Assembly: GCA_031253875.1 (NCBI GenBank)
Contig: JAIRVN010000025.1
Location: 1 to 12,453 of the forward strand
Source of the DNA: Deltaproteobacteria bacterium
Lineage (GTDB): Bacteria > Desulfobacterota > Desulfovibrionia > Desulfovibrionales > Desulfovibrionaceae
Direction: 5' to 3'
DNA: 12,453 nt
Both the position numbers and the translations under genes were made by a program. Within the stretch, counting starts at the first letter, position 1, and every line of letters begins with the position of its first letter. Positions 1,879 to 12,453 of this stretch are shown here, piece by piece. Below the pieces are notes generated by a model. The model saw nothing but the letters and a program-made list of their open reading frames with translations. It was not told the DNA's origin and did not search any database.

Positions 1879-2043
1879 GCATTGCCTTGCGGAGTCTTCC
1901 GCGTCTCTTGAGCTAATTCCACAATAGTATCAAGACCTGCCACATACCCCTACTACAGGCATACAAATTGCTTTTCTTGTGCTTGTGAAACAAGCCCCAG
2001 CGTGCGGACGGTCTGTACAGCGGCTATACGGCGTGGATCGTAC

Positions 2044-2047
2044 AGGA
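2044..2047 (+). promoter_or_regulatory. Ribosome binding site deciding the antiporter start
   Basis: AGGA lies 9 nt before the ATG at 2057. The upstream in-frame GTG at 1979 has no comparable purine-rich site, and the extension it would add is not membrane-like, so 2057 is preferred. Confidence 0.5.
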
Positions 2048-2056
2048 TGTTTCAGT

Positions 2057-3493
2057 ATGGGAAACTTCATGAAGCAAAAGCCTCTATTCCTTGCGGCCGT
2101 GGTGACTGCATCTCTGCTACGTCCCTGCCTGGCTCTGGCAGCCGCCGGGCACCCGACAATTCCCGGAGCGGAACTGTCGGGGATCTGGGCCGTTCCCTTT
2201 GTCTGCATGCTTTTGTCCATCGCCGTCATGCCACTGGCGCTTCCCGACATCTGGCACCACCATTTTGGAAAAATTTCCCTTTTCTGGGGCCTGGCTTTTT
2301 TTATTCCCTGTTTGTTCACATACGGGTCTTCCGTGGCTTTGTACGAGCTGTTGCACACCATGTTTCTGGAATATATTCCTTTCCTCATCCTGCTTCTTGC
2401 TCTTTTTACTGTGGCCGGAGGCGTCCGCTTTACGGGCGCCCTGGTCGGCACTCCGGCCGTGAACGCCGGCATCCTGCTGGCAGGCACCCTGTTCGCAAGC
2501 TGGATGGGCACCACCGGCGCAGCCATGTTGTTTATCCGGCCTTTGCTGCGCGCCAACAGACACCGTAAATACAAAGTACATTCCGTGATCTTCTTTATTT
2601 TTTTGGTCGCCAATATCGGCGGCTCGTTGACCCCGCTCGGCGATCCGCCGCTCTTCCTCGGTTTTTTGAAAGGCGTCAGCTTTTTCTGGACAACATCTCA
2701 TCTTTTTTTGATGACAGCTTTGCTCTCCCTGGCCTTACTCAGTGTGTACTTTATTTTGGATACGGTATTCTTCGCCAAAGAAGGGCGCCCCACGCCGCCC
2801 GTGACGAAGAATGATGAAAAATTCGGGTTTGAAGGCAAGATAAATCTGTTGTTGCTTGCAGGCGTGGTGTCTGCCGTGCTCATGTCCGGCACTTGGCAGC
2901 CGGCTGCCAGGCCGATTACGATTTACGGGATCGAGTTGGAGTGGCAGAATATGGCTCGTGATGCCATTTTATTGCTTATCGCCGGGCTTTCGCTCAAATT
3001 GACCTCCCGGGAGTGCCGGGACAAGAATGATTTTTCCTGGAGCCCCATTCAGGAAGTAGCAAAGCTTTTTCTTGGCATCTTTCTCACCATCATTCCGGTT
3101 ATTGCCATTCTCAGGGCCGGAACCAGCGGCGCGCTGGCGACGCTCGTCAATCTGGTTTCCAAGGACGGTCAGCCGGTGAACGTCATGTATTTCTGGCTTT
3201 CAGGCGGTTTGTCGAGCTTTTTGGACAATGCGCCGACCTACCTTGTCTTTTTCAATACTGCGGGCGGAGACGCCTTGCAGCTTATGGGGCCCATGGCACA
3301 GACGCTGGTGGCCATATCCGCCGGTTCGGTGTTCATGGGCGCCAATACCTACATAGGCAACGCTCCCAATTTCATGGTGCGATCCATCGCCGAGGAGCAG
3401 GGCGTCGCCATGCCCAGCTTCTTCGGGTACATGCTCTGGTCGGGCGGGATTCTCATCCCGTCGTTCATCATTCTGTCGTGGCTGGTGTTTTAG
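2057..3493 (+). CDS. Sodium:proton antiporter-like / CitMHS-type ion transporter
   Basis: This is a polytopic inner-membrane transporter of the ion-transporter (CitMHS/NhaD-like) superfamily, 478 residues from the chosen ATG at 2057. Roughly 11-12 hydrophobic segments are visible. The family signature is the paired re-entrant-loop motifs: GGSLTPLGDPPL around residues 188-199 in the first half and LDNAPTYLVF around 389-398 in the second half. The N-terminus (MKQKPLFLAAVVTASLL...) resembles a signal sequence or first membrane helix. Relatives are usually annotated as sodium:proton antiporters or putative citrate/anion transporters, and the ion cannot be told from sequence alone. An alternative GTG start at 1979 would add 26 residues. 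A second ATG, at 2069, is also possible. The gene ends 84 nt before the dehydrogenase cassette and may or may not be co-transcribed with it. Part of the gene is AT-rich (hand count for row 2701-2760: 24 of 60 G/C), in line with runs of Phe/Leu codons. Confidence 0.85.
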   Translation: MGNFMKQKPLFLAAVVTASLLRPCLALAAAGHPTIPGAELSGIWAVPFVCMLLSIAVMPLALPDIWHHHFGKISLFWGLAFFIPCLFTYGSSVALYELLHTMFLEYIPFLILLLALFTVAGGVRFTGALVGTPAVNAGILLAGTLFASWMGTTGAAMLFIRPLLRANRHRKYKVHSVIFFIFLVANIGGSLTPLGDPPLFLGFLKGVSFFWTTSHLFLMTALLSLALLSVYFILDTVFFAKEGRPTPPVTKNDEKFGFEGKINLLLLAGVVSAVLMSGTWQPAARPITIYGIELEWQNMARDAILLLIAGLSLKLTSRECRDKNDFSWSPIQEVAKLFLGIFLTIIPVIAILRAGTSGALATLVNLVSKDGQPVNVMYFWLSGGLSSFLDNAPTYLVFFNTAGGDALQLMGPMAQTLVAISAGSVFMGANTYIGNAPNFMVRSIAEEQGVAMPSFFGYMLWSGGILIPSFIILSWLVF

Positions 3494-3577: not shown

Positions 3578-4726
3578 ATGATCCATGTTTTCAACAATAT
3601 TCCGAAAATTGTCTATGGTTTCGGCGCTATCTCCAGCGCCGGCGCGGAAATTACGCGTCTTGGCTGTCAACGCGCCTTCATCGTCACTGATCCCGGCATC
3701 GCCGCCCTCGGCTTGCTCAAGCCTTTGGAGGCATCCTTGTCTGCAGCCTCCATCACTTTTGATATTTTCGACAAAGCCGAGCTTGAGCCTTCCGCAGCCT
3801 CCATCCAACAATGCGCGGACGCAGCCAAAGCCTTCAAAGCGGACTGTGTTATCGGCATCGGCGGCGGCAGTCCGCTGGACACCGCCAAAGCGGCCTTGAT
3901 ACTCCTTTCCAATGAAGGCGGCATCGAAAAATATTTCGGCATGAACATGGTTCCCAATCCCTGCCTGCCCGCGATGTTTATCCCCACGGCAGCGGGCACG
4001 GGCAGCGAGGTCACGTCCATTTCCGTGCTCACGAATCCGCAAACGGGCGCGAAACAGGGTGTGGTCAGCGAGTACCTGTATGCACGCGTCGTGTTGCTGG
4101 ATCCGGAACTGACCTTCGGTTTGCCGCCCCATATCACAGCCATGACCGGCATGGACGCCTTTGTGCATGCCATGGAATCCTTTGTGGGTCTTGCGGCCAC
4201 GCCCCTCACCGATGCCGTGAATCTCCAGGCCATGCGGCTCGTGTCCGCCAACCTGCGCAAAGCCTACGCCAACGGCGGCGATACGAACGCCCGCGCGGGC
4301 ATGCTGTACGCTGCGACCCTGGCGGGGATGGGCTTTTCCCAAACCCAAAACGGCATCATCCATGCCGTGGGCACCTCGCTGCCCTCATCCTGTGGACTGC
4401 CGCACGGCCTGGTCATGGCGGCCCTGGCGCCCATGGGCATGTCGTACAACTGTATCGCCGCACCTGAAAAATACGCCCAAGTGGCGGAAATTCTGGGCGC
4501 GACGCCCTGTGGAACAGCCTTGGACACCGCACGCAAGGGCATTGATGCCATGCGCGACCTGCTGGCGGATGTGGGTATCGCCCACGGCCTTAAAGCGCAC
4601 GGGGTTGCGCGCGAACACCTGGAAGGCACGGCGCAGCGCGCCGCCGGAGCCAAGCGGCTTATAGACAATAATCCGCGCAAGGCGAACGCTCAACAGATCC
4701 TGTCGTTGCTGGAAGATCATTATTAG
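3578..4726 (+). CDS. Iron-containing (group III) NAD(P)-dependent alcohol dehydrogenase
   Basis: This is a soluble metal-dependent dehydrogenase interconverting an aldehyde and a primary alcohol. From the ATG at 3578 it has 382 residues, the usual length for the family. Visible are the nucleotide-binding GGGSPLDTAKA (95-105), the conserved PTAAGTGSEVT (136-146), and the four metal ligands of the FucO/Fe-ADH fold: Asp193 and His197 in GMDAFVHA, His262 in NGIIHAVG and His276 in GLPHG. All catalytic positions are intact. It is the first gene of the cassette and lies 119 nt upstream of a CoA-acylating aldehyde dehydrogenase, so its likely job is to reduce the aldehyde made there. If the substrate is sulfoacetaldehyde, this would be a sulfoacetaldehyde reductase giving isethionate, the role of the Fe-ADH SarD in Bilophila taurine metabolism. 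Lactaldehyde, succinate semialdehyde or another short aldehyde cannot be excluded. Family assignment is firm; substrate is inference. Confidence 0.93.
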   Translation: MIHVFNNIPKIVYGFGAISSAGAEITRLGCQRAFIVTDPGIAALGLLKPLEASLSAASITFDIFDKAELEPSAASIQQCADAAKAFKADCVIGIGGGSPLDTAKAALILLSNEGGIEKYFGMNMVPNPCLPAMFIPTAAGTGSEVTSISVLTNPQTGAKQGVVSEYLYARVVLLDPELTFGLPPHITAMTGMDAFVHAMESFVGLAATPLTDAVNLQAMRLVSANLRKAYANGGDTNARAGMLYAATLAGMGFSQTQNGIIHAVGTSLPSSCGLPHGLVMAALAPMGMSYNCIAAPEKYAQVAEILGATPCGTALDTARKGIDAMRDLLADVGIAHGLKAHGVAREHLEGTAQRAAGAKRLIDNNPRKANAQQILSLLEDHY

Positions 4727-4810
4727 ACCCTGTCTCAAGATCGGAATTGCTGAAGACGCGGATCCGGACGCCGCCGTGCGCTATCCGGAAAGAGGAAGCG
4801 GAAACGGGGA

Positions 4811-4823
4811 TCCCAAAATGGGA
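4811..4823. repeat. Short inverted repeat upstream of the aldehyde dehydrogenase
   Basis: TCCCA (4811-4815) and TGGGA (4819-4823) pair around an AAA loop, 12 nt before the AGGAGG site. It lies in the 119-nt gap that is the only sizeable break inside the cassette. It may be an RNA-stability hairpin or chance; no promoter was recognised beside it. Confidence 0.3.
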
Positions 4824-4834
4824 CAATAAAACCC

Positions 4835-4840
4835 AGGAGG
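4835..4840 (+). promoter_or_regulatory. Ribosome binding site deciding the aldehyde dehydrogenase start
   Basis: A full-consensus AGGAGG lies 5 nt before the ATG at 4846. An out-of-frame ATG at 4842 is too close to the site. The longer in-frame start (TTG at 4747) has no site of this strength. Confidence 0.8.
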
Positions 4841-4845
4841 CATGT

Positions 4846-6249
4846 ATGGAAAATAATTCATTGATTGACGATCTTGTCAGCAAGGCGCGGGCAGCGCAGG
4901 AAAAAGTCGCGAATTATACCCAGGCGCAAATCGACGATGTATGCAAAGCAGTGGCCTGGCAGGTCTACAAGGATGAAAACATCCGGCAGCTTGCCCGCCT
5001 CGCTGTCGATGAAACAGGCATGGGCAATTATGAAGACAAGCTTACAAAGCACAAGAACAAAGTTTTGGGCATTATCGTGGACGCGCTTGCGGCCAAGACG
5101 GTTGGGCTTATTGAGAGGGATGAAGCCAGGGGCATAAGCAAATACGCCAAGCCCGTGGGCGTGGTCGGCGCGCTGACGCCCACCACCAATCCCACGGCAA
5201 CGCCAAGCAGCAATGGCGTGGCAATTCTCAAGGGGAGGAACGCGGTCATCTTTGCGCCGCATCCCCGCTCGAAAAAAGCCACCGCTTTGGCAGTCAGCAT
5301 GATGCGCAACGGCCTTAAAATAGTCGGCGCTCCAGAGGATCTGGTACAGGTAATTGCGGAGCCTTCCATAGACTCCACCAACGAACTCATGAAAAAGGTC
5401 GATCTCATTCTCGCCACAGGCGGCGCGCCTATGGTCAAAGCCGCGTATTCAAGCGGCAAGCCTGCATTCGGCGTAGGTCCCGGCAATTCCTGCCAGATAA
5501 TCGCCGAAGACGCCGACGTCAGCGACGCCGCGGAAAAAATCAAAATAGGCAAGACCTTTGACTATGCCACTTCCTGCTCTTCTGAAAATTCGATCGTCAT
5601 CCACAAAAGCATCTACGAAAAAATGATCCATGCATTACAAGAACGTGGCGGCCACCTCTGCAGCGCGGAGGAAAGGGCGAGGCTCAAAGACCTGATGTGG
5701 AAGCCGAATAAACACGGCGCAATGATCATCAATATAGACATTGTTGCGAAGTCAGCCGTCGCAATCGCGGCGGGGGCGAACATCAATGTGCCGGAAAACA
5801 CGAAAATGCTGCTTGTTGAAGGCGACATGCCGCTTGAAGACGATCTGTTCGCCGAGGAAAAAATTTCGCCGGTGCTTACAATTTACAAGTACGACACCTT
5901 TGGGGAAGGCGTCGAGATTCTCACAAGGCTGACCGATAACTGCGGCAAAGGCCACTCTTGCGGCATACACACGTTCAACAGGGAATATATCGAGTACCTC
6001 GGACAACACATGAGAACAAGCCGTATCGTGGTCCGCCAGCCGCAGGCAGCCGCGAACGGCGGCACTTTTTACAACGGTATGCCTTCGACGGTCACCCTGG
6101 GCTGTGGCACCTGGGGAAACAACATCACCACCGAAAACATCAGCATCAAGCATTTCATCAATGTCACCTGGCTTTCCGAGCCGATTCCCCTTAACCGTCC
6201 CACTGACGATGCTGTTTGGGGCGAGTACTTCGCAAAATACGGGAAGTAA
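4846..6249 (+). CDS. CoA-acylating aldehyde dehydrogenase, sulfoacetaldehyde dehydrogenase-like
   Basis: This cytosolic NAD(P)-dependent enzyme interconverts an acyl-CoA with the free aldehyde plus CoA. It has 467 residues, typical of stand-alone acylating dehydrogenases (EutE, SauS, clostridial SucD type) and much shorter than AdhE. Landmarks are TPTTNP in the cofactor region (111-116), GPGN (211-214), the catalytic cysteine Cys244 in TSCSSENS (242-249), and a C-terminal stretch with VVRQPQAAANGG and GTWGNNITTENI that resembles enzymes annotated as acylating sulfoacetaldehyde dehydrogenase (SauS, or SqwD of the sulfo-transketolase pathway). That last match is from memory, not a search. The next gene begins 4 nt after its stop. 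Its position between an Fe-ADH and an acyl-CoA ligase fits reduction of the ligase product. Hand-counted GC of sampled rows is lower here (30/60 and 29/60) than in tctA (38/60 and 41/60). Acylating function is firm; the sulfonated substrate is a hypothesis, with succinyl-CoA or another short acyl-CoA as alternatives. Confidence 0.9.
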   Translation: MENNSLIDDLVSKARAAQEKVANYTQAQIDDVCKAVAWQVYKDENIRQLARLAVDETGMGNYEDKLTKHKNKVLGIIVDALAAKTVGLIERDEARGISKYAKPVGVVGALTPTTNPTATPSSNGVAILKGRNAVIFAPHPRSKKATALAVSMMRNGLKIVGAPEDLVQVIAEPSIDSTNELMKKVDLILATGGAPMVKAAYSSGKPAFGVGPGNSCQIIAEDADVSDAAEKIKIGKTFDYATSCSSENSIVIHKSIYEKMIHALQERGGHLCSAEERARLKDLMWKPNKHGAMIINIDIVAKSAVAIAAGANINVPENTKMLLVEGDMPLEDDLFAEEKISPVLTIYKYDTFGEGVEILTRLTDNCGKGHSCGIHTFNREYIEYLGQHMRTSRIVVRQPQAAANGGTFYNGMPSTVTLGCGTWGNNITTENISIKHFINVTWLSEPIPLNRPTDDAVWGEYFAKYGK

Positions 6250-6253
6250 CACT

Positions 6254-7375
6254 ATGAAACTTTTTGAATTCCAGGCAAAGGAAGCCTTTGCGGAAAACGC
6301 TATCCCCGTTCCCAAGGGCATGGTCGCCACCAGTATGGAAGAGGTGAAGACGGCACTACACAGCATCGGCCTGCCCTGTGTGATCAAAGCTCAGGTTTTG
6401 AGCGGCGGGCGCGGCAAGGCCGGGCTCATCCAGTTCGCCGAAAGCGTTGAGGAAGCGCAGCAGAAAGCGAAAGAACTGTTCGATTCCAAACACAACGTAC
6501 GCAAGCTGCTGATAGAGGAAGCCGTGGACATCGCGCGCGAACTCTACCTGGCCGTCACCATAGACCCGGTGAGCGCCACGGCCCTGTTCATCGCCTGCGC
6601 CGAAGGCGGCGTGGAAATTGAAAAACTGGCCGCCGAGCAGCCGGACAAGATCGTTTCCGTCAAGGTGGATCTGGACTGGAGTTTTATGCCGCACCACATG
6701 CGCGAGATCACCTTCGGCCTTGGGCTTGAAGGCGAAGAAGCCAAACAGGTGGGCGCCATCGCCAAAAACCTGTTCTCCGTATTTCGCAAACACGGCGCGG
6801 AACTCGCGGAAATAAATCCGCTTTTCATTACCAAACAGGGCAGCCTCATTGCGGGTGACGGCAAGCTCATCATCGACGACTGCGTAAGTGACGGAAAATA
6901 TCCCCTCAGTCGGGAATACTTCGACACCGATACGGAATACGAAGCCGCGCTTGCAGGCATTCCCTATCTCCAGTTCGACGGCGATATCGCACTGATGTGC
7001 GCCGGGGCCGGCCTGACGACCACGGTCTTCGACCTGGTGCATTACGCTGGCGGCAAGGTCGCCAGTTATCTTGAATTCGGCGGCCCCAACTATACCAGGG
7101 CCAAAGACGCCATGCAGCTTTGCCTGAAAAATCCCAGCAAGGTCATCCTTGTCGTCACCTTCGGCACCATCGCGCGCGCCGATGTTATGGCCACAGGACT
7201 GGTCGAAGCCATTGCGGAGCTCAAACCCGCCGTGCCCATTGTGACTTGCATACGCGGCACCAACGAGGAAGAGGCTTTCGCCACCTTGCGTTCAATCGGT
7301 CTTGAGCCTTTGTACGAAACCGAAGACGCGGTGCAGCGCGCTGTTGACATCGCTGCCGGGAGGCACGCCTTATGA
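6254..7375 (+). CDS. ADP-forming acyl-CoA ligase, beta subunit (SucC-like)
   Basis: This is the ATP-grasp subunit of a two-subunit acid-CoA ligase related to succinyl-CoA synthetase, which couples formation of an acyl-CoA to ATP hydrolysis or the reverse. It has 373 residues against about 388 in E. coli SucC. The ATP-grasp start MKLFEFQAKEAF, the nucleotide loop KAQVLSGGRGKAG (45-57), EGGVEIEKLA, the metal-site EINPL and a later GDGKL are all present. The C-terminal half departs from SucC where the substrate is thought to bind: VTFGTIARAD replaces NIFGGIVRCD, CIRGTNEEEA replaces RLEGNNAELG, and FGGPNYT replaces the GGGAT loop (E. coli sequence from memory). That argues for a substrate other than succinate. 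Start: ATG at 6254, with GGGAAG of the preceding gene's end as a weak ribosome site. It overlaps the alpha subunit by 4 nt (ATGA), suggesting translational coupling. In context it probably activates the acid imported by TctABC; sulfoacetate is the leading candidate, as for SqwKL. Confidence 0.9.
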   Translation: MKLFEFQAKEAFAENAIPVPKGMVATSMEEVKTALHSIGLPCVIKAQVLSGGRGKAGLIQFAESVEEAQQKAKELFDSKHNVRKLLIEEAVDIARELYLAVTIDPVSATALFIACAEGGVEIEKLAAEQPDKIVSVKVDLDWSFMPHHMREITFGLGLEGEEAKQVGAIAKNLFSVFRKHGAELAEINPLFITKQGSLIAGDGKLIIDDCVSDGKYPLSREYFDTDTEYEAALAGIPYLQFDGDIALMCAGAGLTTTVFDLVHYAGGKVASYLEFGGPNYTRAKDAMQLCLKNPSKVILVVTFGTIARADVMATGLVEAIAELKPAVPIVTCIRGTNEEEAFATLRSIGLEPLYETEDAVQRAVDIAAGRHAL

Positions 7376-8259
7376 GTATTTTCATAGATGCGGCAACCAC
7401 CGTGGAAGTTCAAGGGGCAACGGGCAAAGAGGGCAGCTATTGGCTCAAGCACATGGCCGAAATGGGCACCAGGGTCGTTTTCGGCGTGACGCCCGGCAAG
7501 GAAGGTCAATTCGTGGAAAACGTGCCCGTGTTCTCTTCCGTGCAGCGCGGCATGAAGCAGCATCCGGCGGAACTGGCCATGCTGTTCGTCCCGCCGCGCT
7601 TTACCAAGGACGCCGTGTTTGAAGCTCTGGACGCCGGCATCAAGAAGATCGTCACCATCGCCGAAGGCGTTCCCGCGCACGAGCTTCTCCAAATCCGGCG
7701 GGCCGCCCTTTCCTGCGGGGCCTTTGTCATCGGCGGCAACACCTCCGGGATCATCTCACCCGGCAAAGGCATGGCGGGTTGCATTCCTTACTGGATTCAG
7801 CGCGTATACCGCAAGGGCGATATCGGCGTGATGACCCGCAGCGGCTCGCTGACCAACGAAGTGACCGCGGAAATCGTCAAGGGCGGCTTCGGGGTGTCCA
7901 CCCTGATCGGGGTCGGCGGCGACATGATACCCGGAACGCGCTTTGTCGAGCTTTTGCCCATGTATGAAAAGGATCCGGAGACAAAAGCCGTGGTGATCAT
8001 CGGCGAACTCGGCGGAACTATGGAGGAGGAAGTGGCCGAAGCCATTGAGGCCAAAGTGTTCACCAAGCCTCTTGTGGCCTTTGTGGGCGGCCGCACAGCC
8101 CCGGAAGGCAAACGCATGGGGCATGCCGGCGCGATAGTCACCGGCGGACGCGGTTCCGTAACGGGCAAGGTCAAGGCACTGGAAAAGGCCGGGGCGTTCA
8201 CGGCGGCCAAACCGAGCCAGGTGGGCCAACTGCTCAAGGAAGCTATGGCAAGGGCCTGA
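7372..8259 (+). CDS. ADP-forming acyl-CoA ligase, alpha subunit (SucD-like)
   Basis: This is the CoA-binding, phosphohistidine-carrying subunit that pairs with the SucC-like subunit encoded just upstream. At 295 residues it is close to E. coli SucD. The CoA-binding Rossmann domain begins at MSIFIDAATTVEVQGATGKEG (SucD has QGFTGSQG at the same place). The phosphorylated histidine is His251 in RMGHAGAI (codon 8122-8124), so the phospho-relay chemistry is intact. The conserved loop GPNCPG of SucD is GGNTSG here (121-126), losing both prolines and the cysteine. This loop lies next to the active site, so the change fits altered acid specificity. GGGAGG at 7358-7363 precedes the ATG by 8 nt, and the ATGA overlap with the beta gene fits the 1:1 stoichiometry of the complex. 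Together the pair forms the energy-coupling step of the cassette: it consumes ATP in the uptake direction and yields ATP if the pathway runs oxidatively. Confidence 0.92.
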   Translation: MSIFIDAATTVEVQGATGKEGSYWLKHMAEMGTRVVFGVTPGKEGQFVENVPVFSSVQRGMKQHPAELAMLFVPPRFTKDAVFEALDAGIKKIVTIAEGVPAHELLQIRRAALSCGAFVIGGNTSGIISPGKGMAGCIPYWIQRVYRKGDIGVMTRSGSLTNEVTAEIVKGGFGVSTLIGVGGDMIPGTRFVELLPMYEKDPETKAVVIIGELGGTMEEEVAEAIEAKVFTKPLVAFVGGRTAPEGKRMGHAGAIVTGGRGSVTGKVKALEKAGAFTAAKPSQVGQLLKEAMARA

Positions 8260-8300
8260 CGGGTCTTGCGGCGGCAAACGTTGTCACATGAGGAGAACCC

Positions 8301-9848
8301 ATGCTTGAAACCCTATCGTATTTAAGCTTTCTTGCCGATCCCTACGTGCTGCTCGTCATGACGCTGGGCACCCTGGCCGGCATTTTTCTCGGCGCCATGC
8401 CGGGCGTCAGCCCCACCATGGCTGTGGCCCTGCTGGTGCCCATGACCTTTTACATGGACCCGCGCACCGGGCTCATCCTGCTCGGCGCGGTATATTCCAG
8501 CGCCGTGGCCGGGGGCGGCATTACGGCCATTCTCATTAACGTGCCAGGCGCTCCGGCCTCCATCGCCACCTTGCTCGACGGCTACCCCATGGCCAAGAAA
8601 GGCCGGGCCTGGGAAGCCCTGTGCATTACCTTCTGGTACTCCATGATCGGCGGGATCGTCGGCGTGCTGGCCATGATCTGGTTCGCTCCCATTCTGGCGA
8701 ACTTCGCCATGAACTTCGGCCCTGCCCAGATTTTCTGGGTGACCGTTTTCGGCATCACCATCATCTCCGGCCTTTCCGGAGGCGCGGTAATCAAGGGGCT
8801 TTTCGGCGGACTTTTCGGCATGCTTTTAAGCTGCATCGGCTTCAGCCCCATGCTGGGCGAACCCCGCTACGTCTTCCATGACAGCCTGACCAGCGGCATC
8901 GCCATCGTGCCCGTGCTGGTGGGCATGTTCGCCATACCGCAGGTGCTGGATCTGGCGGAAAACCTGCACAATCTCTCGGGCGAAAACCGCCTGAGACTGA
9001 TGGAGCAGGCCAGGGCGGGAGGCGTACGGCCCAGGGGAACGATGCTGAAAATCATCCTCAACATCCGCCACTGGTGGAAGACGGTGACGTGTAGTCTGGG
9101 CATCGGCCTGGTCAAGAGCGTTATCCCGGGCGTCGGCGCCAACGTGGTCGGGCTTATCGCCTATGACTACTCCAAAAGGCTGTCCGATAATCCCCAGGAT
9201 TGGGGCAAAGGCGAACCCCAGGGCGTTGTGGCCTCGGAAACCGCCAACAACTGCACGGTAGGTCCGGCCCTTATTCCCCTGCTCACCCTGGGCATCCCCG
9301 GCAGTCCCACCGCGGCCGCGCTGCTGGGCGGGCTGCTCATCCACGGCCTCTTCCCCGGCCCGGAACTGTTCACCAAACACCGCGAAATAACCCTGACTTT
9401 TATGGCAGGCCTGCTGGCGGCGCAAGTTTTCATGTTCTTCGGCGGCATGCTCATTTCCCGCTATTCTCAGCATATCACCAAGGTTCCCGCGCTGATCATG
9501 ATAGCCGCGGTTTCCGTGTGCGCCGTGGTGGGTTCCTATGGCGTGCAGAACAGCATGGATGACGTGCTCATCATGCTGGGTCTCGGACTCATGACCTACG
9601 TGCTTCTCAAGCTGGATTTCCCGGTGGCGCCCATGGTGCTGGGCGTGGTGCTGGGCCCCATTGCCGAAGTAAACTTTCTGCGCGGCAAGCTTGTTGCTGA
9701 AGCCGGCGACGGGATGTTCCAGTTCTTTTTTACCGGCGGAATCAATATTACTTTTATTATAATCTGCGTCCTCTCCATTTGTTGGGGGTTCTTCGTGGAG
9801 TATCGCGCCTACAAGAGCAAAAAGGCAGCGGCGGAGGTGCAATCATGA
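8301..9848 (+). CDS. tctA: TTT-family transporter large membrane subunit TctA
   Basis: This is the large permease subunit of a tripartite tricarboxylate transporter, a secondary importer of organic acids that works with a small membrane protein and a periplasmic binding protein. It has 515 residues with about 12 hydrophobic segments, the normal size. The family signatures are clear: GAMPGVSPTMAVALLVPMTF near residues 32-51, then VYSSAVAGGGITAILINVPG with a following DGYPMAKKGRA, and in the second half the repeated motif IPGVGANVVGLIAYDYSK with TLGIPGSPTAAALLGG. The two half-repeats each carry a PG-containing loop. AGGAG at 8291-8295 lies 5 nt before the ATG. The gene follows the ligase alpha gene by 41 nt and overlaps tctB by 4 nt. 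Context makes the cargo the acid activated by the SucCD-like ligase; known TTT cargoes include citrate and other carboxylates, and sulfonate cargo here is inference. Confidence 0.95.
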   Translation: MLETLSYLSFLADPYVLLVMTLGTLAGIFLGAMPGVSPTMAVALLVPMTFYMDPRTGLILLGAVYSSAVAGGGITAILINVPGAPASIATLLDGYPMAKKGRAWEALCITFWYSMIGGIVGVLAMIWFAPILANFAMNFGPAQIFWVTVFGITIISGLSGGAVIKGLFGGLFGMLLSCIGFSPMLGEPRYVFHDSLTSGIAIVPVLVGMFAIPQVLDLAENLHNLSGENRLRLMEQARAGGVRPRGTMLKIILNIRHWWKTVTCSLGIGLVKSVIPGVGANVVGLIAYDYSKRLSDNPQDWGKGEPQGVVASETANNCTVGPALIPLLTLGIPGSPTAAALLGGLLIHGLFPGPELFTKHREITLTFMAGLLAAQVFMFFGGMLISRYSQHITKVPALIMIAAVSVCAVVGSYGVQNSMDDVLIMLGLGLMTYVLLKLDFPVAPMVLGVVLGPIAEVNFLRGKLVAEAGDGMFQFFFTGGINITFIIICVLSICWGFFVEYRAYKSKKAAAEVQS

Positions 9849-10312
9849 GCGACAGGCTGAGAGAGTATCTTTCCATCGGCGTCATGCTCGCCCTGGTCGG
9901 TTTTTTCTACATGCAGACCCCGTCGGAGGTGAAGCACGGAGGCTCCATTTTCCCCAATGCGCTCATGGGCGCACTGGCCTTCTTAACCTTGCTGAAAGTG
10001 GCCGTCGATCTGCTGTTTCCCAAGTCCAGGGCAGCGAAACAGGACGTGGATCAAGCGACAAAGGACAACCGGAAGCGTTTTTGGTTCATCCTGGCGTCCA
10101 TCATCGTCTACGTCCTTTTGGTGGAGTATATCGGCTTCTATGTTTCGAGCTTTGTCTTCTTTTTCGGCCTCACCGTGGCTGTGCAGTATGAACCGCGCAC
10201 CCCGCGCGGCCTTGCCATACGCCTGGCCTCAGTGACGGGGTTTATGCTGTTCCTCTGGATCTTGTTCACAAAGGTATTGTTGGCGCAGTTGCCCAAGGGC
10301 ATGTTCTTTTGA
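9845..10312 (+). CDS. tctB: TTT-family transporter small membrane subunit TctB
   Basis: This is the small, poorly conserved membrane subunit of the TTT importer, 155 residues, starting at the ATGA overlap with tctA (GGAGG at 9833-9837, 7 nt upstream). A longer in-frame start exists inside tctA but lacks support. Four hydrophobic segments are visible: around 8-26, 33-54, 76-112 (probably two helices around GFYVSSFVFFFG) and 121-147. These are separated by a charged loop (KSRAAKQDVDQATKDNRKR), the usual TctB topology. Assignment rests on size, topology and its place between tctA and tctC; on sequence alone it would be uncertain. Confidence 0.9.
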   Translation: MSDRLREYLSIGVMLALVGFFYMQTPSEVKHGGSIFPNALMGALAFLTLLKVAVDLLFPKSRAAKQDVDQATKDNRKRFWFILASIIVYVLLVEYIGFYVSSFVFFFGLTVAVQYEPRTPRGLAIRLASVTGFMLFLWILFTKVLLAQLPKGMFF

Positions 10313-10342
10313 TGAAACCATTGGACTCTTGAGGAGAAAGAC

Positions 10343-11311
10343 ATGAAAAAATTTGCTTTGCCTATCAGTTTTGCGCTCCTGCTTGCGGCGGCGGCCGTGG
10401 TCTGGGCCAAGGGCCCGGGCGGCTACCCCAATGCCCCCATCACCCTGGTGGTCTGCTATTCCGCAGGCGCGGCCACCGACTTCCAGGCCCGCATCGTCAG
10501 CATGCCTGCGGGCAACGACAAGTACTTCGGCGAGCCCATTGTCATTGTGAACAAAGCCGGCGCCGGCGGCATGACCGGCTGGAACTGGATGGTGGACAGA
10601 GCCGGCAAGGACGGCCTGACCATGACCGCCTACAACCTGCCCCACCTGGTGGCACAGGCTTTGGTGCAGAAGCCCAAGTTCACCGTGGAATCCTTTGAGC
10701 CTCTCGCCAACTGGGGCACCGATCCGGCGGTGCTGGTGGTAGCCACGGACAGCCCCTTCAAAACCGTGGATGACCTGGTGAAATTCGCCAAGGCCAACCC
10801 CAAAAAACTGACCATGAACGGCGCGGGCCTCTATGTGGGGCACCACATTGCCACCCTGCAACTGCAAAAAACCGCCAAAATCGAGGTGACCTACGTGCCT
10901 GAGCAGGGCGCGGCCGACGCCATAGCCTCCCTGTACTCCAAGACGGTCATGGCCGGCTTCACAAACCTGGCAGACGCCTACCGTGCGCCGGATCGCCTGC
11001 GCGTTCTGGCCATTGCCGACCTGAAGCGTCACGAGTACCTGCCCGATGTCGCAACTCTCAAGGAACTCGGCTATGACATCGACAACAGCAGCGTGAACTT
11101 CCGGGGCTTCGCCCTCCCGGCCAGCGTGCCCCAGGACATTATCGAATACGCGGCCAAGACGGTGGAAGCCATGTTCAAGGATCCCATGGTAGTCTCGAAA
11201 ATGAAGGAAAGCGGCAGTCCGCTGAATGTCATGTCCCGGGAGGAAGTGAAGAAGCTCTTTGCCCAGCAGAAGGCCGTGCTGACGGAACTGTTGCTTACTG
11301 ATAAAAAATAG
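10343..11311 (+). CDS. tctC: TTT-family periplasmic solute-binding protein TctC (Bug family)
   Basis: This is the periplasmic receptor that delivers the substrate to TctAB. It has 322 residues with a classic signal peptide: MKKFALPISF, then an alanine-rich core, with probable cleavage after VWA near residue 22. Bug-family landmarks follow: YPNAPITLVVCYSAGAATDFQAR with the ligand-loop position usually written GGPTD here reading GAATD, then VNKAGAGGMTGW in place of the common NKPGAGG, PVDDLVKFAKANP-type helix text (TVDDLVKFAKANPKK) in mid-protein, and a C-terminal helix ending in EVKKLFAQQKAVLTELL. GAGGAG at 10331-10336 sits 6 nt before the ATG. It is the last gene of the unit, 30 nt after tctB and about 50 nt before a strong terminator. 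Family members bind carboxylates through backbone contacts in two loops; the changes there are compatible with a different acid, but the ligand cannot be read from sequence. Confidence 0.94.
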   Translation: MKKFALPISFALLLAAAAVVWAKGPGGYPNAPITLVVCYSAGAATDFQARIVSMPAGNDKYFGEPIVIVNKAGAGGMTGWNWMVDRAGKDGLTMTAYNLPHLVAQALVQKPKFTVESFEPLANWGTDPAVLVVATDSPFKTVDDLVKFAKANPKKLTMNGAGLYVGHHIATLQLQKTAKIEVTYVPEQGAADAIASLYSKTVMAGFTNLADAYRAPDRLRVLAIADLKRHEYLPDVATLKELGYDIDNSSVNFRGFALPASVPQDIIEYAAKTVEAMFKDPMVVSKMKESGSPLNVMSREEVKKLFAQQKAVLTELLLTDKK

Positions 11312-11329
11312 ACCGCTTCCTCCGGTTGC

Positions 11330-11357
11330 CGCCTGAAAGCTCATGCGGCTTCAGGCG
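11330..11357. repeat. Inverted repeat downstream of tctC
   Basis: CGCCTGAA (11330-11337) pairs perfectly with TTCAGGCG (11350-11357) around a 12-nt loop that can add a two-pair extension. No T tract follows on either strand. It may act as a 3'-end stabilising hairpin for the operon message, just before the true terminator. Confidence 0.55.
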
Positions 11358-11363
11358 ATAAAA

Positions 11364-11417
11364 GCGTTGCTGTTGAAGCCGACCGACATAGGAATCAACA
11401 GCAGCGCAGTTTTTTTT
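11364..11417 (+). terminator. Strong intrinsic terminator of the catabolic operon
   Basis: A 13-bp stem with one G-U pair (arms 11364-11376 and 11395-11407) encloses an 18-nt loop. After two bases it is followed by eight consecutive T (11410-11417). Four A residues precede the left arm, so it could also work weakly on the minus strand. It separates the tctC end from the downstream regulator gene. Confidence 0.88.
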
Positions 11418-11532
11418 CTTGAAGGCAGCGCATAATTCTGCAATTCTTGAGAACCGGCTTGCAAGACGTATGCCCCGTTCCGCCCGGCGCGGATGCAGGC
11501 GAAACGATATCCGGTTTCAGAGAGCGGAAAAT

Positions 11533-12453
11533 ATGCCAAAATCTCTTGCGATTTTTTCAAAGCCTGCGAAATTCTTCGAGCGCATTCTCAACAGCCTGAC
11601 TACCGGCATATTTGTCTGCGGCAATGAAGAAAGCAATTACATCGTCCATTTTATCAACGACGCCTATGCGTGCTATCTGGGCGTCCCGCGCGAGGAAATT
11701 CTCGGACGGCCCATCACAGACTTCATTCCCGACACACGCGCCCCCTTTGTCACCAGCACAGGGCTCGCCGAAATGGGCGATTTACGCACGCTCAAGGGAG
11801 CAAACGGCGAGAGGTTCATAATTGTAAACCGCCTGCCTTTCAAAGATGACCATCATACGGTCGGCATGCTTTCTCAAACCCTCTTCGGTTCGCGCGAAGA
11901 ATTTGATGTTGTCATCAAACGTGTTGAATATCTTGACAAAAAAATAGCCTCTGACGCCCGGCGCATCAAGAGCGCCCTGTCCCCCCACTACACGCTCAGC
12001 TCCATCCAGGGAGAGAGCAAGGCCATCCGGCAATTCCGGGAACATCTGGTGCGCTGTGCGCAGGCGGATTCACCGGTACTCGTTTGCGGCGCCACCGGCA
12101 CCGGCAAGGAACTTGCGGCAAATGCGCTGCACTGCGAAAGCTCTCGCCATGACGGACCCTTTGTCAGCATCAACTGTGCGGCGATCCCCAAAGAGCTTTT
12201 TGAGTCCGAACTCTTCGGCTATGCGCCGGGCGCTTTTTCCGGCGCGCACAAGGACGGCAAGGTCGGGCAGATCGAACTGGCGGATCGGGGAACCCTGTTT
12301 CTGGACGAAATAGGCGACACGCCCCTGCCGGCCCAGGCAAAACTTTTACGCGTGCTGGAAAACCGCACCCTTCACAGACTGGGGTCTTCGCAGCCGCGCA
12401 CGGTGGATTTCCGCCTTGTCGCGGCCACGAACCGGGATATCAATGCCATGATC
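11533..12453 (+). CDS. PAS-domain sigma-54-dependent transcriptional activator (3' partial)
   Basis: This is an enhancer-binding protein that hydrolyses ATP to open sigma-54 RNA polymerase complexes. The frame is open from ATG 11533 to the last base: 307 residues are visible, and the rest of the AAA+ domain and the expected Fis-type DNA-binding domain are outside. An N-terminal PAS-like sensor (about 13-115) contains the typical FINDAYACYLGVPREEILGR. A charged, probably helical linker (122-150) follows. The AAA+ domain shows Walker A GATGTGKE (186-193), ELFGYAPGAFSGA (226-238) and Walker B TLFLDEIGD (254-262). The sigma-54-contacting loop reads GAFSGA with Ser236 (codon 12238-12240) rather than GAFTGA, and Walker A has Ala for the usual Glu. 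There is only a weak ribosome site (GCGGA). An in-frame ATG at 11470 would add 21 residues that do not look like the family. It lies next to the transporter-ligase operon, so control of that operon by its substrate or an intermediate is likely but inferred. Confidence 0.92.
   Translation, partial: MPKSLAIFSKPAKFFERILNSLTTGIFVCGNEESNYIVHFINDAYACYLGVPREEILGRPITDFIPDTRAPFVTSTGLAEMGDLRTLKGANGERFIIVNRLPFKDDHHTVGMLSQTLFGSREEFDVVIKRVEYLDKKIASDARRIKSALSPHYTLSSIQGESKAIRQFREHLVRCAQADSPVLVCGATGTGKELAANALHCESSRHDGPFVSINCAAIPKELFESELFGYAPGAFSGAHKDGKVGQIELADRGTLFLDEIGDTPLPAQAKLLRVLENRTLHRLGSSQPRTVDFRLVAATNRDINAMI

Follow-up and report, generated by a model that had tools for sequence, protein, structure and literature searches.

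How does a bacterium of the Desulfovibrionaceae come to carry, in one row and on one strand, an iron-dependent alcohol dehydrogenase (Fe-ADH), a CoA-acylating aldehyde dehydrogenase (ALDH), a two-subunit CoA ligase and a complete tripartite tricarboxylate transporter (TTT), and which compound would such a set of genes handle? The question is raised by positions 3578 to 11311 of the window, by which we mean the whole stretch of 12,453 nucleotides analyzed here, contig C214 of a metagenome-assembled genome (MAG; bin G000, 1.35 Mb, 58% complete, 259 contigs). We consider it probable that the window holds a sulfoacetate uptake-and-reduction operon. In the proposed pathway TctABC would import sulfoacetate, the ligase would convert it with ATP to sulfoacetyl-CoA, the acylating dehydrogenase would reduce this to sulfoacetaldehyde, and the SarD-like Fe-ADH would reduce sulfoacetaldehyde to isethionate, which would then pass to a glycyl-radical lyase yielding sulfite and acetaldehyde. 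Import, activation and two reductions had already been proposed in an earlier, sequence-only reading of this DNA, and they are still the best-supported interpretation, which we infer from the SarD and SauS families, the ligase motifs and the neighbors of these genes in relatives.

Enzyme families and operon organization

Pfam and NCBIfam scans covered nine window proteins. The Fe-ADH (3578..4726, + strand), a putative sulfoacetaldehyde reductase, has SarD (NF050025) as its best NCBIfam match with 594 bits, the next family reaching 284 bits; it is 58% identical to the SarD of a relative (G013), and their alignment has in common a D/H/H/H pattern, presumably the metal ligands. The ALDH (4846..6249, + strand), a putative CoA-acylating sulfoacetaldehyde dehydrogenase of SauS/SqwD type, finds its best family in SauS (NF047625) with 538 bits, a lead of 103 bits over the second ALDH family at 435. 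The candidate ADP-forming sulfoacetate-CoA ligase consists of a SauC/SqwK-like beta subunit (6254..7375, + strand), with the Pfam domains ATP-grasp_2 and Ligase_CoA and the motif FGTIARAD, and a SauD/SqwL-like alpha subunit (7372..8259, + strand), with CoA_binding and Ligase_CoA and the motifs GHAGAI, which we take to hold the active-site His, and RSGSLTNE. The beta subunit scores 320 bits against the best NCBIfam SucC model (cut-off 376) and the alpha subunit 319 bits (SucD cut-off 336), and neither reaches the cut-off of any SucC or SucD model that it matched. FGT(I/V)ARAD recurs in 95 of the 96 other beta rows, the 96th having a gap there, and RSGSLTNE in all 92 other alpha rows, whereas the aligned succinate ligases carry FGGI.R.D and SGTLTYE instead. 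These rows came from the 24 related loci described below and from 80 loci found through the ALDH, among which neighbors were scanned in L003, L004, and L005 only; as all of them were found through a SauS/SqwD-type ALDH, the motifs mark ligases travelling with such dehydrogenases and not one substrate.

The three genes that follow encode the importer, which we liken to the SauXYZ set: the large membrane subunit TctA (8301..9848, + strand; PF01970, 437 bits), the small membrane subunit TctB (9845..10312, + strand; PF07331, 60 bits) and the periplasmic binding subunit TctC (10343..11311, + strand; PF03401, 119 bits). Each of the seven open reading frames (ORFs) runs uninterrupted on the + strand and matches a named Pfam family. 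The gaps between them are, in order, 119, 4, −4, 41, −4, and 30 nt, that between Fe-ADH and ALDH being the sole exception to a spacing below 45 nt, so that coordinates and families bear out the earlier description of seven same-strand genes mostly joined by overlaps or short gaps. The 119-nt gap showed no unusual fold (z −0.84) and no terminator-like site on the + strand. Gene starts were chosen by us (the ALDH ORF has an alternative start, TTG, at 4747, and the regulator start was set by eye). The strong terminator said to end the cassette is real: a hairpin (stems GCGTTGCTGTTGA/TCAACAGCAGCGC) followed by AG and a run of eight T lies at 11364..11417 on the + strand, and the fold of the region 11305–11425 (z −4.13) was equalled in 0 of 200 shuffles. 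A simple terminator scan, made for loops of 3–8 only, did not list this long hairpin.

Neighborhood in related genomes

A SauS relative at E ≤ 1e-150 is held by 24 of 288 genomes of the family, the window's own included, and addition of G058, from the same order, gives 24 loci outside the window in stretches of 8 to 20 kb. The ligase pair adjoins the dehydrogenase in 24 of 24 loci and TTT genes were matched in 13, whose TctC proteins are 52–66% identical to that of the window. Downstream of the terminator lies a PAS and sigma-54 activator (11533..12453, + strand; Pfam PAS_9 and Sigma54_activat), truncated at the contig end, which may regulate the operon; a homologous regulator is present in 18 of the 24 stretches, the best being 71% identical. 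Xsc occurs in eight of the loci, and in four (G032, G030, G058, and G247) its gene immediately precedes sauS on one strand; a glycyl-radical enzyme (GRE) with its activase is found in two (G030 and G058). The closest solved structures to the G030 GRE are 5ymr, which we take to be IseG, and 7kq3, an isethionate sulfite-lyase. At E ≤ 1e-150 a GRE is present in 15 of the 24 related genomes, nine being without, and in 13 of these 15 it shares 71% identity or more with that of G030.

What is new in the window is the position of sarD directly upstream of sauS, which is seen in none of the 24 related loci; 23 of them are informative on this side, because the contig of L109 (G013) ends at the start of sauS. 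Five SauS-bearing genomes (G013, G064, G090, G161, and G219) do have an Fe-ADH match at E ≤ 1e-120, away from SauS: it lies on a different contig or, in G090, on the same contig at a far distance. Database searches were also made with the Fe-ADH, the ALDH and the ligase, in which the 8000 candidates with most shared words were scored and the best 120 kept for each protein. When the best 120 Fe-ADH and the best 120 ALDH matches were compared by eye, two contig sizes only were equal, 2135 and 3832; in both cases the sources differ, and 2135 is too short for both genes. There being no credible Fe-ADH/ALDH contig pairing among the matches listed, the sarD-sauS neighborhood is described here from this window alone.

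Comparison with known sulfoacetate systems

The combination of a TTT importer with a SucCD-type ligase had been put forward as a distinct arrangement. This is unsupported, because such a ligase, a TTT system and reduction to isethionate have together been reported for Bilophila wadsworthia, in passages of PMC12890257 and PMC12625764. As stated there, sulfoacetate is converted to isethionate by SauCD, SauS and TauF and isethionate is cleaved by IseG (PMC12890257), and the sauSCD cluster has been described with the TTT as putative sulfoacetate transporter SauXYZ (PMC12625764); the pathway is attributed to Liu et al. 2023, JBC (PMC12890257, PMC12625764), and sponge symbionts are reported to have TTT genes in sauSCD and in hybrid sauST clusters as well (PMC12625764). 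The window resembles the Bilophila system in its set of enzymes, in the types of ligase and importer and in the direction presumed. Compared with that system, as far as citing passages without a cluster map describe it, the window has sarD directly upstream of sauS and an ALDH of SqwD type. The isethionate-cleaving enzyme that the sequence-only reading had assumed, and that Bilophila has in IseG, was not found in the window's genome, which is 58% complete. Among the Bilophila-type features present are the two-subunit ligase, which falls on the SauCD branch in comparison with related sauSCD loci rather than with Bilophila sequences, and TctA, TctB and TctC, all over their Pfam cut-offs.

A homologous acylating dehydrogenase and ADP-forming ligase form SqwD/SqwKL of the sulfo-transketolase (sulfo-TK) variant, which is described in passages of PMC11489063, together with HpfYZ, and attributed to Chu et al. 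2023 (PMC12890257, PMC11489063). The window ALDH lies on the SqwD branch. However, the window has a TTT importer where the loci L003 and L005 have a gene of the Na_sulph_symp family beside the ligase, and neither the transketolase SqwGH nor the isomerase SqwI was found among the nine window proteins scanned, the search being confined to these proteins of the genome. With SauSTU of Cupriavidus necator, as given in part of PMC12625764, the proposed pathway shares the intermediates sulfoacetyl-CoA and sulfoacetaldehyde; in contrast to it, the window is without SauT and the single-gene transporter of the major facilitator superfamily, SauU, and has a two-subunit SucCD-like ligase and the TTT system.

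The gene order xsc-sauSCD-TTT was observed in L106, L107, L108, and L165 (Desulfovibrionaceae and Desulfomicrobium), where sulfoacetate would be routed by way of Xsc; an islAB-like pair also lies nearby in L107 and L108. Ligase, ALDH, TTT and sigma-54 regulator of these loci are as in the window, but Xsc occupies the place of the window's Fe-ADH. The comparison suggests a swappable module for the fate of sulfoacetaldehyde, with xsc or sarD beside sauSCD. We see in the locus an already described pathway whose genes are newly arranged, its function being predicted from sequence, and it extends the reported sulfonate-reduction pathway to a further lineage of Desulfovibrionaceae. Our literature search, made at the level of titles and the beginnings of abstracts and with subscription papers mostly outside it, found no sarD-sauSCD-TTT operon among the papers listed.

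Mosaic ancestry of the dehydrogenase

The ALDH and the ligase differ in their nearest relatives. Among the best 80 of 205 related loci found through the ALDH, the window enzyme is 82% and 79% identical to those of two Treponema MAGs from the termites Termes hospes (sample code Th196) and Embiratermes neotenicus (Emb289), while it is 54–59% identical to the dehydrogenases of the 24 related loci. The ligase, on the other hand, is nearest to Desulfovibrionaceae (the five best are 71–77% identical in the beta and 85–86% in the alpha subunit, against 56% and 70% for L003), and TctC (66%) and the regulator (71%) are also closest to that family. Ten ORFs were scanned around the matches in L003, L004, and L005. 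In L003 they include an aldolase, an isomerase of RpiB type and a gene of the Na_sulph_symp family; L004 has a part of a transketolase, and L005 has a GH31 enzyme and likewise a Na_sulph_symp-family gene. This gene content fits the sulfo-TK variant.

The trees place the ALDH beside the two Treponema enzymes (support 100/99) and the ligase with that of G175 (100/98), nested in a clade of related sauSCD loci (99/97 for 13 rows; 98 for 25 rows); larger quick trees agree with both placements. Constraining the ALDH to group with 12 related SauS proteins was rejected (p-AU, approximately unbiased test, 0.00086), as was constraining the ligase to group with the two Treponema (p-AU 0.00008). Of the 105 ALDH rows and the 92 ligase rows, 29 each entered these tests, with 12 of the 24 related loci among them, and the p values are weakened because the tested groups were named after the first trees had been seen. 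A shared history of the two enzymes is nevertheless rejected, and a gene replacement across phyla is well supported by these trees: the ALDH looks like a xenologous replacement beside a ligase of Desulfovibrionaceae type. The transfer would have run from a Treponema-like donor to the Desulfovibrionaceae. In a tree with 39 database matches, proteins of unknown host are nearest to the window ALDH. Among the database matches, ALDH and ligase hits fall on contigs of equal size at 5237 (P0125, 88%; P0245, 89%) and 7290 (P0136, 81%; P0247, 82%), with source 'ena', which suggests, if equal size means the same contig, that the pairing of a SqwD-type ALDH with a Desulfovibrionaceae-type ligase recurs elsewhere. 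P0123 (ALDH, 88%, contig of 11004) has no equal-sized contig among the ligase matches listed; therefore, not every near relative of the ALDH need have the mosaic. The same literature search listed nothing on SauS/SqwD transfer in termite guts.

Direction, substrate and fate of isethionate

Several observations weigh against a sulfoacetate-reducing operon. The matches of 594 bits to SarD and 538 bits to SauS lie below the curated cut-offs of 700 and 600; these cut-offs look strict for this lineage: G046 has a SarD-like Fe-ADH, some 1.5 kb away from an islAB-like pair, with a score of only 502, and for the SauS dehydrogenases the scores are 469 in G032 and 485 in G175. The spacing after sarD (119 nt) is the loosest in the gene set, and the window Fe-ADH has no match (E ≤ 1e-12, at least 100 residues) in any of the 24 related loci, its adjacency to sauS being seen in this window only. 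TTT genes had no match in 11 of the 24 loci, five of them in full 19.9-kb stretches (L164, L169, L174, L176, and L179), and the importer is therefore not universal. The SqwD branch, to which the ALDH belongs, works oxidatively according to passages of PMC12890257 and PMC11489063. Moreover, neither G000 nor its sole sampled genus-mate G001 (64% complete), both incomplete, gave a PFL-like or GRE match or a match for dsrA, NIR_SIR or DsrC, and for Xsc there was no match in G000 and only one below cut-off in G001.

The weight of these absences depends on the other genomes. A PFL-like match is absent from 37 of 59 genomes and a dsrA match from eight of 59 (G000, G001, and six others), while DsrC was found in eight of nine other genomes examined, the one missed being G033 (72% complete), which has dsrA. 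If a gene were present in both G000 and G001 and loss were independent, it would be missed in both through incompleteness with a chance of about 0.42 × 0.36 = 0.15; because of this value, and because other genomes also miss these genes, we regard the absences as suggestive only. No Xsc was found among the window proteins scanned, and the contig ends inside the regulator, just past which Xsc lies in G175 and G178.

If the pathway ran in the oxidative direction, isethionate would be converted through sulfoacetaldehyde and sulfoacetyl-CoA to sulfoacetate with gain of ATP, as by SqwD/SqwKL in the sulfo-TK variant. The SqwD type of the ALDH, the sulfo-TK-like surroundings of its nearest Treponema enzymes and the lack of any sulfite-releasing or sulfite-reducing enzyme found in G000 and G001 argue for this. 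However, the ligase, TTT and regulator are nearest to sauSCD loci, some of them beside xsc or an islAB-like pair, both genomes are incomplete, and TTT systems are importers; we hold oxidative operation to be unlikely.

With uptake and reduction of sulfoacetate as the preferred reading, the choice of substrate has still to be weighed. A set like HpfX/HpfYZ/HpfD working in reverse would reduce 3-sulfopropionate to 3-hydroxypropanesulfonate, and passages of PMC11489063 state that HpfYZ is likewise an ADP-forming ligase and that B. wadsworthia grows on 3-sulfopropionate; but SauS and SarD are the best families here and eight of the 24 related loci have xsc close to sauS (the comparison did not extend to HpfX/HpfYZ sequences), which makes this substrate improbable. 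An ordinary carboxylate such as succinate, reduced to an alcohol, appears more improbable still. The ligase is SucCD-like and the closest solved structure to the ALDH is an acylating succinate-semialdehyde dehydrogenase, 8cei, which gives a weak hint; against it, and leading us to reject succinate and other ordinary substrates, stand the scores of the ligase below all matched SucC/SucD cut-offs, its motifs unlike those of aligned SucCD and the SauS margin over the next ALDH family. Nor does the ALDH side with succinate-semialdehyde or propionaldehyde dehydrogenases, a grouping that would have counted against the sequence-only reading: SauS is its best curated family, and it falls with Treponema among the rows sampled for the trees, which were of SauS/SqwD type and included none of those two enzymes. 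Least probable of all is an artefact of assembly as the origin of the ALDH-ligase mosaic, for although the MAG is in 259 contigs and one only of the seven nearest ALDH matches (85–89%, P0122–P0128) has an equal-sized contig among the ligase matches listed, several of the other contigs are shorter than 3 kb and too short to tell, the junctions are tight, the frames are intact, and ALDH and ligase matches fall on contigs of equal size, 5237 and 7290, presumed on that ground to be shared.

Isethionate cross-feeding in the rumen, with Mailhella as likely consumer, is reported in part of PMC13219744. For the window we offer a scenario that is tentative and rather doubtful as a whole: a sulfoacetate-using member of the Desulfovibrionaceae, probably of insect guts, may have swapped its own reductive SauS, in place, for the oxidative SqwD of gut spirochetes that excrete sulfoacetate, so that one enzyme lineage would make and consume sulfoacetate across a cross-feeding pair. 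If the genus is truly without sulfite respiration, isethionate would be excreted and sulfoacetate would be an electron sink without desulfonation. The ALDH would then offer a concrete example of enzyme transfer between two organisms, one probably producing sulfoacetate and the other probably consuming it.

Flanking genes and other SarD-like loci

A search for sigma-54 promoters gave 7 matches at no more than 2 mismatches, below the shuffled mean of 8.97, and no promoter is therefore claimed. The upstream flank of the operon begins with a putative transporter gene of the CitMHS_2 family (1979–3493), 84 nt 5′ of the Fe-ADH gene, and the ORF upstream of it we read as a P-type ATPase. As a candidate member of the operon the CitMHS_2 gene was excluded, because it has no match in the 24 related stretches. 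It is 71% identical to one in L227 (G141), where a SarD-like gene lies about 7 kb off.

In G013 (L188:6700–10642) a SarD scoring 735 bits, above the curated cut-off, stands beside an alanine dehydrogenase and a class-III aminotransferase, with sauSCD on a different contig; we assume that this set resembles the Bilophila taurine cluster. In L222:5988–14132 (G134, also of this family) an Fe-ADH of SarD type, with 77% identity to that of the window, shares its strand with a split transketolase, a phosphofructokinase (PFK)-like gene, a LacI regulator, a thiamine diphosphate (ThDP) enzyme and a 3-hydroxyisobutyrate-dehydrogenase-like gene, which is possibly a sulfo-TK-like operon in a member of the Desulfovibrionaceae.

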